Translations under genes and position numbers: made by a program
Part shown: piece after piece, positions 34,648 to 39,014 of the stretch
Position numbering within the stretch: position 1 is the stretch's first letter
Layout of the letters: each line of letters begins with the position of its first letter
Assembly: GCA_020161145.1 (NCBI GenBank)
Contig: JAIUPQ010000001.1
Location: 1-64,000, forward strand
DNA: 64,000 nucleotides
Origin: Pseudomonadota bacterium
GTDB lineage: Bacteria; Pseudomonadota; Gammaproteobacteria; Burkholderiales; Burkholderiaceae_C
Reading direction: 5' to 3'
The notes under the pieces: generated by a model
Told to the model about the DNA's origin: nothing
Databases searched by the model: none
Seen by the model: only the letters and a program-made list of their open reading frames with translations

Positions 34648-35112
34648 ATGCGCCACCTTGCCCTGCTCGCCGCCGCCCTCATCGCCACCCCCGCCCTGGC
34701 CCAGTCCATCGGCGAGGTCAGCACCGTGTTCAAGTTCTGGGGGCCCAACGACAAAATCATCGTCGACGCCTACGACGACCCCGGCGTGCAGGGCGTGACC
34801 TGTTACGTCTCGCGCGCCAAGACCGGTGGCGTCAGCGGCGCGCTGGGCGTGGCCGAGGACAAGTCCGAGGCCTCCATCGCCTGCCGCCAGACCGGCCCCA
34901 TCGTCATTGCCAAGCCGCTGCGCCAGCAGGAAGAGGTCTACAGCGAGCGCATCTCGCTGGTCTTCAAGCGCCTGCAGGTGGTGCGCATGGTGGATGCCAA
35001 GCGCCACACCCTGGTCTACCTGACCTACTCCGACCGTGTCATCGAAGGCTCGCCCCAGAACAGCGTCACGGCCGTGCCGGTGCCGCTGGATGTGGCCATG
35101 CCGCTGCGCTAG
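34648..35112 (+). CDS. creA: CreA family protein
   Basis: A 154-residue exported protein. The signal peptide is MRHLALLAAALIATPALAQ, and the mature part carries the CreA pattern: IGEVSTVFKFWGPNDKI, VDAYDDPGVQGVTCYVSRAKTGG and SIACRQTGPI. CreA is a conserved periplasmic protein of unknown function. The start at 34648 is preferred over 34630 because GGAG lies ten bases upstream and the signal peptide then begins correctly. The gene overlaps convergent dinB by four bases. Confidence 0.9.
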   Translation: MRHLALLAAALIATPALAQSIGEVSTVFKFWGPNDKIIVDAYDDPGVQGVTCYVSRAKTGGVSGALGVAEDKSEASIACRQTGPIVIAKPLRQQEEVYSERISLVFKRLQVVRMVDAKRHTLVYLTYSDRVIEGSPQNSVTAVPVPLDVAMPLR

Positions 35113-36239
35113 GGCGAGGGCGTCAGCGCGGCCACCCGCACGCCCAGCAGCCGCAGCGGCCGCTCCAGCGGCGCGCGGCGCAGACACTGGATGGCGGCGC
35201 GCCGCAGCGGCGCCAGGGTGTTGACCGCCGCTGGCAGCGTCAACTCGCGCGTGGCGGTGCGAAAGCGGTCGTCGCGCAGCTTGATGCCCACGGTGCGGCC
35301 GGCCAGGTGTTTGCGCGCCAGGTCGTCCACCAGCTGTTCGCACAGCTGGTCGAAGGCGGTGGTCAGCGCCGCGCGGTCGCGTCGGGGGTGCAGGTCACGC
35401 TCGAAGGTGGTTTCGCGGCTGAGGCTGACCGGCTCGCTGTGGGTGACCACGGGCCGGTTGTCGCGGCCATGGCTGGCGGCGTGCAGCCAGGCGCCATGGG
35501 TGGGGCCGAAATGCCCAATGAGCCAGGCCGGCTCGCGCGCGGCCAGCTCGGCAATCGTGGTCACGTCCAGGCCCGCCAGCCTGGCGCCCATCTTGGGGCC
35601 GATGCCGTTGATGCGCCGCACCGGCAGCGGCCAGATGTGGGTGGCGATGTCGGCCTCGGTCAGCAGCGTCAGCCCGTCGGGCTTGTCCAGGTCGGAAGCG
35701 ATTTTCGAGAGCAGCTTGTTGGGCGTGACGCCGATGGAGCAGGTCAGGCCCGTGCGTTCGCGCACGTTGTTCTTGATCTCCAGTGCCAGCGCGCGCACAC
35801 CGCCATGGGCGTCGTGGCCCACGGCGTCCTGGGCGCCGGGCACCTCGGTCAGGTCGATGTAGATCTCGTCGATGCCGCGGTCTTCGATCACCGGCGCCAG
35901 CTCGGCCACGGCGGCCTTGAAGCGGCGCGAGTAGAGGCGGTATTGCGCAAAGTCCACCGGCAGCAGCACCGCGTCCGGTGCCAGTTGGGCGGCTTTCATC
36001 AGGCCCATGCCGGAGTTGACGCCGTAGGCCCGGGCGGCGTAGGTGGCGGTGGTGATGACGCCGCGTCCGCTGTAGTCGCGCAGCCGCGCACAGCGCAGGC
36101 TGCCGTCGGGCATCAACCGGGGGGTGCTGTCGCGCCGTCCGCCGATAACCACGGCCTCGCCGCGCAGTTGCGGGTAGCGCAGCAACTCCACGGACGCATA
36201 GAAGGCGTCCATGTCCAGGTGGGCGATCCAGCGCCTCAT
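35109..36239 (-). CDS. dinB: DNA polymerase IV (Y-family)
   Basis: Translesion polymerase of 376 residues. Catalytic acids lie in HLDMDAFYASVE and in EDRGIDEIYID. The thumb helix-hairpin-helix is RINGIGPKMGARL, and the little finger domain contains HSEPVSLSRETTFERD. The C-terminus lacks a clear beta-clamp motif of the QLxLF type. An element of inverted repeats (36276-36377) lies between the dinB start and the rest of the spacer and would be in its 5' leader if transcription begins upstream. Confidence 0.95.
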   Translation of the reverse strand: MRRWIAHLDMDAFYASVELLRYPQLRGEAVVIGGRRDSTPRLMPDGSLRCARLRDYSGRGVITTATYAARAYGVNSGMGLMKAAQLAPDAVLLPVDFAQYRLYSRRFKAAVAELAPVIEDRGIDEIYIDLTEVPGAQDAVGHDAHGGVRALALEIKNNVRERTGLTCSIGVTPNKLLSKIASDLDKPDGLTLLTEADIATHIWPLPVRRINGIGPKMGARLAGLDVTTIAELAAREPAWLIGHFGPTHGAWLHAASHGRDNRPVVTHSEPVSLSRETTFERDLHPRRDRAALTTAFDQLCEQLVDDLARKHLAGRTVGIKLRDDRFRTATRELTLPAAVNTLAPLRRAAIQCLRRAPLERPLRLLGVRVAALTPSP

Positions 36240-36275
36240 GCCTTTGCGTACCTCATGCGGTCATTGAGCGCGCCA

Positions 36276-36377
36276 AGGGTTGCGCATGGCCTGTTGCTGC
36301 GTGTCCCCCGGACTGACAGGCGCCGCGCGCCAATCAGCCCTCCTCCTTGACCTTCGCAACAGGCCATGCGCAACCCT
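36276..36377 (-). repeat. hairpin element copy A (candidate structured RNA or palindromic repeat)
   Basis: A perfect 22-base inverted repeat (36276-36297 and 36356-36377) encloses 58 bases. On the minus strand the core reads GGTCAAGGAGGA, then a 7-bp stem GGGCTGA/TCAGTCC, an internal loop TT/TG, an inner stem GGCGC-GCG-GCGCC, then GGGGGACAC. Copy B, facing the other way at 36427, has the same core bases but different stem bases that still pair. The element lies about 37 bases upstream of the dinB start in the orientation of dinB. Its function is unknown. Confidence 0.65.
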
Positions 36378-36426
36378 GGGCCCCAACGGCGGTGGCGCGT
36401 CACCTTTTTGCAAAGCCCGGCGTCCA

Positions 36427-36544
36427 GGGCGAGTGCTTGCGGCCGGTGTGGATTGCGCAGGTCAAGGAGGAAGGCTGATTCGCCCAAAGGGCGTGTCAGC
36501 CTGGGGGACACGGAGCAAACCGCGCCGGCCGCAGGCGCTCGCCC
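36427..36544 (+). repeat. hairpin element copy B (candidate structured RNA or palindromic repeat)
   Basis: The arms at 36427-36446 and 36525-36544 pair at 18 of 20 positions. They enclose the same core as copy A: GGTCAAGGAGGA, a 7-bp stem AGGCTGA/TCAGCCT, internal loop TT/TG, inner stem CGCCC-AAA-GGGCG, then GGGGGACAC. The inner part of the arms, GGATTGC/GCAAACC, corresponds to GTTGC/GCAAC in copy A. It points away from copy A and towards the 3' end of argH, so a transcript would be antisense to argH. The bases beyond it up to 36601 hold nothing else recognised. Confidence 0.65.
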
Positions 36545-36601
36545 GGTTTCATGCCACTCAGATCGAAGTGCCACCTGTTACCTGCCACGGCCAGCCAGAC
36601 C

Positions 36602-37999
36602 TCAGCCCAGTCGCTCGCGGTGGCGCGCGATCTGCGCGCGGGCTTGCGCGGGCGCGGTGCCACCCACCAGATCGCGTGCGGCCAGCGAGCCGTCCAGCGT
36701 CAGCACACCCGGCGCGTCGTCGCCGATCAGCGGGTGCAGCGCCTTGAGCTCGGCCAGCGGCAACTCGGACAGATCGACGCCGCGGCCCAGCGCCTGCTTG
36801 ACGGCATGGGCCACCACTTCGTGGGCGTCGCGGAAGGGCAGGCCTTTCTTGACCAGGTAGTCGGCCAGGTCGGTGGCGGTGGCGTAGCCGCGCTGCGCGG
36901 CGGCGCGCATGGCGGGCGCCTTGACGCGGATGCCGCCGGCCATCTCGGCCAGGATGCGCAGCGTGTCCTTGACCGTGTCCACGGTGTCGAACAGCGGCTC
37001 CTTGTCCTCCTGGTTGTCCTTGTTGTAGGCCAGCGGCTGGCCCTTCATCAGCGTGATCAGGCCCATCAGGTGGCCCACCACGCGGCCGCTCTTGCCGCGC
37101 GCCAGCTCGGCCACGTCGGGGTTGCGCTTCTGCGGCATGATGGATGAGCCAGTGCAGTAGCGGTCGGCCAGGTCGATGAAGCCGAAGGGCTGGCTCATCC
37201 ACAGCACGATCTCTTCCGCCAGGCGCGAGACGTGCACCATCACCAGCGCGGCGAAGGCGCTGAACTCGATGGCGAAGTCCCGGTCGCTGACCGCATCCAG
37301 GCTGTTCTGGCACAGGCCCTCGAAGCCCAGCGTGCGCGCCACGCGCGCCCGATCCAGCGGGTAGCTGGTGCCCGCCAGTGCGGCGGCGCCCAGCGGCAGG
37401 CGGTTGACGCGCTTGCGCACGTCGGCCAGGCGCTCGCCGTCGCGGGCAAACATCTCCACATAGGCCAGCAGGTGGTGGGCAAAGCTCACCGGCTGTGCCA
37501 CCTGCAGATGGGTGAAACCGGGCATCACCGTCTCGGTGTGCTGGGCGGCCAGATCCACCAGCGCGCGCTGCATCTGGCGCAGCAGCTCGGCAATGGCGTC
37601 GATCTCGCCGCGCAGCCACAGCCGCACGTCGGTGGCCACCTGGTCGTTGCGCGAGCGGCCGGTGTGCAGCCGCTTGCCGGCATCGCCCACCAGCGCGGTG
37701 AGGCGGGCCTCCAGGTTCAGGTGCACGTCTTCCAGCGCGTCCTGCCAGACGAAGGTGCCGGCCTCGATCTCGGCCTTGATCTGCGCCATGCCGCGCTGGA
37801 TGGCCGCCCAGTCGGGCGCACCGATCAGCCCTTGCGCATGCAGCATCTCGGCATGGGCCAGGCTGCCCTCGATGTCGGCCTGCGCAAGCCGCTGATCGAA
37901 GCGCACGCTGGTGGTGTAGCGCTGCACCAGCGCGCTCATGGGCTCGCTGAACAGCGCCGACCATGCCTGCGCCTTGTTGTCAAACTGGTTCTGGTTCAT
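36602..37999 (-). CDS. argH: argininosuccinate lyase
   Basis: ArgH of 465 residues, the last step of arginine synthesis. The fumarase-superfamily signature [12 protein letters not shown] is present, with the catalytic Ser loop. [10 protein letters not shown] and [13 protein letters not shown] are the other substrate-binding blocks. The ATG at 37999 gives [14 protein letters not shown], the expected start in Betaproteobacteria. It diverges from the sensor kinase gene, whose nearest start overlaps this ATG. Confidence 0.96.
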
Positions 38000-39014
38000 G
38001 ACCATCAGTTTAGGATGCGGCGTGCGCCTCCACACCGTTCCCAACTTATGCAGCGCCAGCGCAGTGCTGCGGGCACTGGCGCTGGTGCATGGCGCGCTGG
38101 CCGTGGCCCTGCTTGCGGGCGCGAGCAGCCTGACGGCCTGGGTGCTGGCGCTGGCCGAGGCGGCGTGGCTGGCGGTGCCGGTGACGCTGACCTGGATGCT
38201 GGGCATGTGCGCGGCACGCGGTCATCTGGCGCGGCTGGGGCCGCCGCTGCAAACCCTGGCCGTGTCGGTGTACGCGCTGGCACTGACGGTGGTGCTGGCG
38301 TCGGCGCAGGCGCGCTGGCTGGGTTTGCGGGTGGATGGCGTGGCCGGCGCTGCGGGGCCGGGGCTGGTGGCGGCGGCGCTGGCAGGGGCGTTCTATGCAT
38401 TCGAGCGCAACCGCGCCCGCGCGGCGTGGCCGGCGGCGGCGGCGGCGCAACTGGCCGACCTGCGCACCCGCATCCGGCCGCACTTTCTGTTCAACACGCT
38501 GAACACCGCCATGGCGCTGGTGCAGGACGAGCCGCGCCAGGCCGAGCGCGTGCTGGAGGATTTGTCCGAGCTGTTCCGCGCGGCGCTGGGGGCGCTGGAT
38601 GGCCCCTCGACGCTGGGCGAGGAGATCGCGCTGGCGCGGCGCTACCTGGCCATCGAGCAGTTGCGCTTTGGCGAGCGGCTGCAGGTGAGCTGGGATGTGG
38701 ACGAGTCGGTTGGCGCCGCGCGCCTGCCGCCGCTGGCCTTGCAGCCGCTGGTGGAAAACGCGGTGCGCCACGGCGTGGAGGCCAGCCGCGAGCCGGTGCG
38801 CATCGAGGTGCGCACGCGCCGCCTTGGCGAGCGCGCGCTGGTCAGCGTGACCAACACCGTGCCGGCCGACGCGATACCCGCGCCGGGTGGCCACGGCCTG
38901 GGCCTGGCCAGCGTGCGTGAGCGTCTGCGCCTGCTGCACGACCTGGAGGCCGACCTGCGCCTGGGCCCCACGGCCGATGGCCGCTGGCGTGTGGCCATCG
39001 GGGTGCCGCTGTGA
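37998..39014 (+). CDS. LytS/AlgZ-type sensor histidine kinase
   Basis: About 338 residues. An N-terminal part of four or so membrane helices is followed by a His_kinase domain of the LytS/YehU type. The phospho-acceptor lies in [12 protein letters not shown] and the N-box in [14 protein letters not shown]; the G-box is [14 protein letters not shown]. It is coupled by GTGA to a LytTR response regulator and lies next to argH and hemC, matching the argH-algZ-algR-hemC order of Pseudomonas. The start is uncertain: ATG at 37998 or GTG at 38022. The signal sensed is unknown. Confidence 0.88.

Follow-up and report, generated by a model that had tools for sequence, protein, structure and literature searches.

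The locus between argH and dinB

The window, i.e., the whole analysed stretch of 64,000 nt, contains a pair of long hairpins between argH and dinB, which are both encoded on the minus strand according to ORFs and NCBIfam matches (Table 1). On direct reading, hairpins A (minus strand) and B (plus strand) form an inverted pair in which 50 bp separate the two facing 5' ends. The first-pass annotation had described two head-to-head hairpins with a common core, and the copies, their arrangement and the core are all present; the 7-bp stem, its TT/TG loop and the inner stems of A and B likewise are as it described them. The outer arms are self-complementary in both copies, as annotated, while the numbers of pairs are refined by the predicted folds. 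Since the argH model matches from residue 82, the true argH start is probably later than that of the listed ORF. No sigma-70 promoter-like site was found in the spacer or the window region.

Table 1. Features of the hairpin pair and its neighbours (positions in the window).
Feature	Position	Strand	Basis and remarks
dinB, DNA polymerase IV	35109..36239	-	ORF and NCBIfam
Copy A, whole hairpin	36277..36376	-	outer stem of 21 pairs in predicted fold; sense is minus
Copy A, 3' core strand GGGGGACAC	36301..36309	-	exact-match search
Copy A, inner hairpin (7-bp stem, TT/TG loop, GGCGC/GCGCC)	36310..36340	-	reading and fold
Copy A, 5' core strand GGTCAAGGAGGA	36341..36352	-	exact-match search
Spacer between hairpins	36377..36426		one weak terminator-like site, 36391-36404, plus strand
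Copy B, whole hairpin	36427..36544	+	outer stem of 25+4 pairs in predicted fold; sense is plus
Copy B, 5' core strand GGTCAAGGAGGA	36460..36471	+	exact-match search
Copy B, inner hairpin (7-bp stem, TT/TG loop, CGCCC/GGGCG)	36472..36502	+	reading and fold
Copy B, 3' core strand GGGGGACAC	36503..36511	+	exact-match search
argH, argininosuccinate lyase	36602..38206	-	ORF as listed and NCBIfam

Both core strands have exactly two exact copies in the window. Taken alone, each short motif is close to chance, i.e., its count is reached by 18/100 shuffles for the first (two mismatches allowed) and by 23/100 for the second. The joint core pattern is found at these two places only within the own genome of 3.5 Mb, where the backwards pattern gives 0 matches. 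Predicted folding energies are -71.4 kcal/mol for copy A (z -9.2) and -90.0 kcal/mol for copy B (z -10.8), with 0/200 shuffles being as good, and the complement strands fold worse than the core-sense strands (-63.4 and -71.1, respectively). Compared to most of the relatives listed, which show one shorter stem, the window copies have a longer inner hairpin. A direct repeat of 7 bp, TCATGCC, flanks the doublet at 36236-36242 and 36549-36555 and overlaps the start codon region of dinB; it is possibly a worn target duplication, or chance.

A dispersed family

The pattern GTCAAGGAGGA N(15-45) GGGGACAC occurs in 30/299 same-family genomes, covering 25/141 genera with up to 22 copies per genome, and a reversed control pattern has 0 matches in the 299 genomes. 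We also built a covariance model (R1) from 33 copies. Both window copies are among them, such that the R1 matches to A (36281-36371, E 1.3e-14) and B (36441-36531, E 9.8e-14) are matches to training copies. At E <= 0.01, R1 reports 2 copies in the own genome and 3 to 42 in 8/9 other chosen genomes. Among same-genus genomes the numbers of matches are 20 (G076), none (G181) and 3 (G259). Since G076 and G259 are without an exact-pattern match yet show 20 and 3 R1 matches, 30/299 is a lower bound.

R1 was also run, with stricter filters, on genomes of the whole class, and copies were found in 3/274 of them, namely the own genome, one of the same family and one from another family of the class (G322). 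The latter carries 12 copies, 8 of which form close minus-plus pairs; in the five elements read, AAGGAGGA and GGGGGAC are identical and the stems differ. Scanning named genomes gave at least 119 stretches. The 80 titles listed are nearly all Comamonadaceae, other Burkholderiales or beta-proteobacteria, and genera among the matches listed are Rhodoferax, Hydrogenophaga, Ramlibacter, Polaromonas, Curvibacter and Roseateles, besides one Silicimonas MAG. Viral contigs hold 0 stretches with the exact core, and a viral origin was rejected on this ground.

Rfam yields no match for the element at gathering score (the window gives two tRNAs only), and permissive Rfam scans of 15 loci, the window's own included, also contain nothing at that score. 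Their matches overlapping the element are long-hairpin microRNA families with E 0.39 or worse; the lowest E (0.001) belongs to a family that is unrelated by kind, off the element and below gathering score. The annotators' failure to recognise a known RNA family is thus borne out. A text search of the literature returned the core 12-mer in two irrelevant mouse papers only and none of five longer element or peptide strings. The window pair is one head-to-head unit of a dispersed palindromic, mobile-type repeat of Comamonadaceae-type bacteria.

Covariation and strand-specific pairing

The first-pass annotation had stated that the stems differ yet pair, and had let its claim depend on further homologues with covarying stems. 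Many such homologues were found. Within the 33-copy alignment, 97.1% of the cells are paired compared to a shuffled mean of 61.4% (0/500 shuffles reach the observed value), and 19/23 pairs changed on both sides. Four pairs never vary because the search pattern fixed them, and this also applies to helix 2. Most loci were fetched by the exact core pattern, which accounts for part of the GTC...GAC conservation in alignment A2; variation quoted for the core comes from relaxed scans and partner copies. Arms of G217 copies mostly differ from each other and are still long and well paired, in intergenic as well as coding DNA.

We also compared the two mismatch types in the outer arms, neither of which was favoured in scoring. 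G·T mismatches outnumber A·C by 454 to 42 in 239 of the 279 elements (the other 40 differ in arm register and were left out) and by 161 to 21 when one element per arm cluster is used (103 clusters). P values throughout ignore relatedness. The inner stem shows 30 G·T and 0 A·C, and the asymmetry is weaker in the arms of in-gene copies (29 vs. 9, 19 copies). A G·T on one strand reads as A·C on its complement, and a palindrome acting as a duplex would favour neither. The constraint therefore acts on the folded core-sense strand, be it RNA or single-stranded DNA.

In the relaxed scans, the conserved part of the loop is AAGGNGGA on one strand and GGNGGAC on the other (GGNGGA/GGNGGAC). Positions N28/N65 are A/G in 260 of 279 elements, followed by G/A (15), A/A (2), C/G (1) and G/G (1), and the exchanged G/A state is present in loci of at least six genomes (G075, G042, G133, G164, G217, G076). 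Position C23, opposite a G that the scan requires, is C in 230, A in 38 and T in 11 elements. For position 20/71 we count 182 G-C, 52 A-T, 4 C-G and 1 G-G among 239. The core had been called SD-like, a view we do not retain: A28 in AAGGAGGA changes to G with a reciprocal G to A across the loop, which points to a structural role. Judged from the loop sequence, a purine-purine pair or a G-rich stack of four GG tracts would fit as its structure.

Doublets, element forms and ends

Element pairs within 330 bp are arranged minus-then-plus in 72/74 distinct cases; one is tandem and one tail-to-tail. The core starts of doublets are spaced by 122-269 bp (median 146.5), and the unit measures about 270 bp in the window (A, spacer and B). 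Singles are common, i.e., other copies stand alone or with a decayed partner, and about half of the anchors examined have no clear partner. The hairpins are about 75-118 nt long.

The outer internal loop has two commonest geometries (138 and 101 of 279 distinct elements), GNAG/CGNA and a longer GNAG-YGAG/CGAR-CGNA. Positions Y and R of the second geometry covary (C/G 70, T/A 26, G/A 4, C/A 1). Some copies in G258, G076 and G259 carry two extra hairpins between GGGGGA and the closing AYG, a form that is similar across different genera and may be the parent of the short element. Long forms were seen at L129, L133, L136, L140, L142 and L145 (G258), L151, L152 and L157 (G076) and L083 (G259), with conserved stretches around TGAGCCCGGACAC and GTGCCTGGCGAA.

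Transposon-type ends were observed in G258. Its 17 aligned units, 16 of them with both cores, are similar beyond the arms, and most end in GGCTCTTTG...CAAAGAGCC. For the 11/17 units with both ends placed (6/17 could not be), the flanking 8-mers match at 5.0/8 positions on average compared to 2.5 for permuted flanks, with 0/2000 permutations as high; this is one of 24 offset/length combinations tried, several others of which are also significant. Exact 8-bp repeats are present at L140 and L361, and by eye several units lie at T-tracts beside terminator-like hairpins. The G258 units have inverted repeats and A/T-rich targets, measure about 300-490 bp with their ends and contain no gene that we could see. 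The G258 doublet bears a MITE signature, with inverted repeats and a target-duplication signal of about 8 bp. Two extra end-matches in G258 without a matched core were rejected as complete elements and are considered internally deleted copies.

When inspecting the G164 alignment by eye, similarity stops about at the arm ends and such inverted repeats were not seen, and two G133 copies are alike over about 50 bp beyond an arm. For the window unit, neither an inverted repeat nor a target duplication was established. Neither an autonomous transposon with the G258 ends nor a transposase was found in the 3 genomes of that genus searched. We also looked for an empty site of the window unit in 13 same-genus argH loci (about 1.5 kb each side, both strands; 2/15 other genomes of the genus gave no argH locus), of which 0/13 have DinB nearby.

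Genomic context and copies inside genes

With each doublet contributing both of its members to the counts, intergenic copies are rare between divergent genes (10/212 vs. 107/807 in the background) and common between convergent genes (67/212 vs. 122/807). Intergenic singles beside tandem genes are co-oriented in 23 and anti-oriented in 23 cases. Avoidance of divergent genes, preference for convergent ones and the even orientation are what one expects of an insertion that is tolerated rather than of a leader RNA.

Inside called ORFs we find 46 elements, 39 in sense and 7 in antisense, and 30/39 sense rows are in frame 0, reading about AQVKEEPAKRAGDTEQ; the ORFs stem from a hexamer-based caller, and several of these rows look spurious, i.e., most with a non-zero frame and some in frame 0 (e.g., L059, L060). 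Single copies are in frame inside hrpA, mutS, mutL, mpl and putA. The NCBIfam matches of MutL, Mpl and PutA are above curated cut-offs. Those of HrpA and MutS are strong and below the whole-protein cut-offs, since the proteins are fragments, while a GNAT acetyltransferase and an adenine methyltransferase host gene have matches below cut-offs only.

The hrpA insertion lies in the same linker in the four genomes read (L122, L105, L262, L274), and that of G217 is absent in G125 of the same genus, i.e., the site is present/absent. Our in-gene stem comparison is without L262 (hrpA) and L126 (mutL) and mixes arm registers in the mpl rows; we quote from it the hrpA rows and the in-gene mismatch counts only. 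Among the hrpA copies, certain stem positions are altered on both sides with pairing retained and others change via G·T; one mismatch was seen within the stem.

The HrpA linker, located between DARGG and THKLSNRQYEQ, has in-frame inserts at L122, L105, L262, L274, L314, L316, L323, L325 and L341. Judged by their peptides, these presumably resemble palindromic repeats of several families that vary from species to species, and the linker may be a tolerated landing site. Two in-gene sites, putA and one other gene, hold copies in opposite orientations in different records (L192/L220 and L014/L211).

Interpretation and alternatives

We consider it likely that the window pair is one copy of a dispersed, mobile-type repeat that is non-autonomous and has as its unit two long imperfect hairpins arranged head-to-head. 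This reading draws on the family itself, its doublet architecture, the covarying stems, the strand-specific structural constraint and the transposon-type ends of G258. Against it stand the failure to find an autonomous relative or a transposase, the 6/17 G258 units without both ends placed, the G164 alignment and the window unit, where comparable ends were not seen, and the weaker asymmetry of in-gene arms. The unit would be moved in trans by a cut-and-paste (DDE-type) transposase, at least in the genus of G258. Each hairpin would be held as a single strand, most likely as RNA, and the GGNGGA/GGNGGAC loop may form a fixed purine-purine fold that is used by a protein or by the RNA itself. Units would decay to single hairpins, and singles would survive where they are harmless, i.e., in 3' intergenic regions, or in protein linkers when the reading frame yields a hydrophilic peptide, AQVKEEPAKRAGDTEQ. 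The window pair is an intergenic doublet of this kind, without a demonstrated effect on either argH or dinB.

The earlier alternative of a structured RNA or a mobile palindrome kept by structure holds for the palindrome, which is kept by structure and mobile, while the either/or is too narrow because the element shows both properties. A related explanation sees a structured RNA, protein-binding or catalytic, with a function in trans or within mRNAs, which was dispersed by transposition and is preserved by that function rather than by mobility. It is possible, if doubtful. The nearly invariant loop between hypervariable paired stems, seen in two families, the compensation at the fixed hrpA site and the long forms of G258, G076 and G259 with their two extra hairpins speak for it, but Rfam has no match at threshold, no orientation bias exists relative to tandem genes (23 to 23), the window region is without a promoter-like site and the spread is patchy, with 20 copies in G076 and none in G181 of the same genus.

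We regard it as unlikely that the family is identical to, or a branch of, the Betaproteobacterial repeat element BRE published by Hot et al. (2011). According to its description (PMC3110155), BRE is about 90 bp long, GC-rich and usually intergenic with some copies entirely within coding sequences; 8-22 copies are given for four Bordetella genomes and up to 29 for Polaromonas sp. JS666, with further ones in Rhodoferax, Acidovorax and Delftia. Size, GC-richness and in-gene copies are thus alike, the host ranges overlap, and Rhodoferax and Polaromonas records also carry the present core. However, BRE is described as tandem, i.e., a variable-number tandem repeat, counted at >70% identity (PMC3110155), whereas 72/74 of our adjacent pairs are head-to-head, one of 74 is a same-strand pair, and in several genomes the arms show little similarity to each other outside the core. 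Compared by published description only, BRE may be related to, or overlap with, the present family.

A purely selfish element is expected to lose its stem once immobile, yet the copies at one hrpA site, in several species, stay paired by changes on both sides, which asks for a function. It is conceivable, though quite unlikely in our view, that the hairpin is a portable RNA fold with GGNGGA/GGNGGAC as compact purine structure, possibly a hairpin-bridged two-layer G-quadruplex or an A·G-paired helix, and would be selected wherever it landed, even in housekeeping mRNAs across genera, as a host protein or the ribosome interacts with it.

Rather improbable is a REPIN moved by a RAYT of the Y1/HUH family, which acts on single-stranded DNA hairpins. 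The single-strand constraint would fit such recognition, and 19/20 carrier genomes tested have a Y1_Tnp match. The own genome with its 2 copies, however, has no Y1_Tnp match at E <= 0.001, and the core is present in 0/25 Y1_Tnp loci (about 1.5 kb each side; 2 mismatches allowed in the 5' strand and 1 in the 3' strand), i.e., no linked RAYT gene flanked by the repeat was found there. As far as tested, the RAYT link is thus rejected. Also the inverted repeats and the 8-bp duplication signal of the G258 units stand against it, as Y1 enzymes are not known to leave them.

REPINs share with our family the inverted doublet as unit (72/74 pairs), decayed singlets, extragenic preference and predicted hairpins in single-stranded DNA or mRNA (PMC3116915). 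REPs are defined as palindromes of 20-40 bp with a GTAG or CGTC tag at one end (PMC3733652), while the present hairpins of about 75-118 nt are several times longer and their arms are not conserved. The arm ends of the copies inspected by eye bear no noticeable GTAG or CGTC tag.

Correction of quasi-palindromes is a well-established process, and replication template switching instead of selection could keep the arms of a neutral palindrome complementary, for which the G217 arms that mostly differ between copies yet pair well, intergenic and coding, would speak. We consider this very unlikely, since it predicts equal G·T and A·C mismatches, where 454 and 42 are seen, and leaves the conserved loop and the swap of A·G to G·A unexplained. 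A cis-acting leader or riboswitch for dinB, which the first-pass annotation allowed and for which the sense position of copy A 37 nt upstream of the dinB ORF would speak, is extremely improbable given the balanced orientation beside tandem genes (23 vs. 23), copies at unrelated genes and within coding sequence, and a DinB motif in 0/13 same-genus argH loci, i.e., placement and orientation upstream of dinB are not conserved.

We thus return to the non-autonomous mobile-type doublet and its relation to further known systems. Rickettsia palindromic elements (RPE) are palindromes of 105-146 bp with predicted long stem-loops; besides lying between genes, they are inserted in frame in conserved protein genes, where they encode a conserved peptide (PMC2229807; PMC10969869). 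In-frame insertion into protein genes is found here, too, and the likeness is one of form and insertion. In contrast to RPE, the present family has other hosts, a head-to-head doublet unit, strand-specific wobble pairing and a fixed internal-loop core with arms differing from copy to copy. Bacterial MITEs resemble the G258 units in their inverted repeats, duplication signal of about 8 bp, A/T-rich targets, size of about 300-490 bp and lack of a visible gene, but the present units carry two structured hairpins under structural constraint, and MITE-type ends were not seen in the G164 alignment or the window. The attC sites of integrons have variable arms and conserved unpaired bases and are recognised as folded single strands. 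Our family differs from them by its core, its head-to-head pairs and its dispersed copies. Most likely, the element spreads like a REPIN or MITE and enters genes like an RPE; not all defining features of any one of them were observed.

Conserved sequence is the usual means by which palindromic repeats of bacteria are identified. In this family, most positions vary and what persists is the loop and the ability to pair, such that ordinary similarity searches would see fragments only. The strand-asymmetric wobble signal offers a simple way of testing if a repeat acts as a single strand. The hrpA site is common to several species, and the pressure on the fold is measurable there. The copies in mutS, mutL, hrpA, mpl and putA are a further case of Rickettsia-like palindrome insertion into proteins.

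Both mutS and mutL, i.e., two mismatch repair genes, carry in-frame copies (L023, L024, L126, L279, L171), with the gene names of L171 and L279 assigned by similarity to L126.
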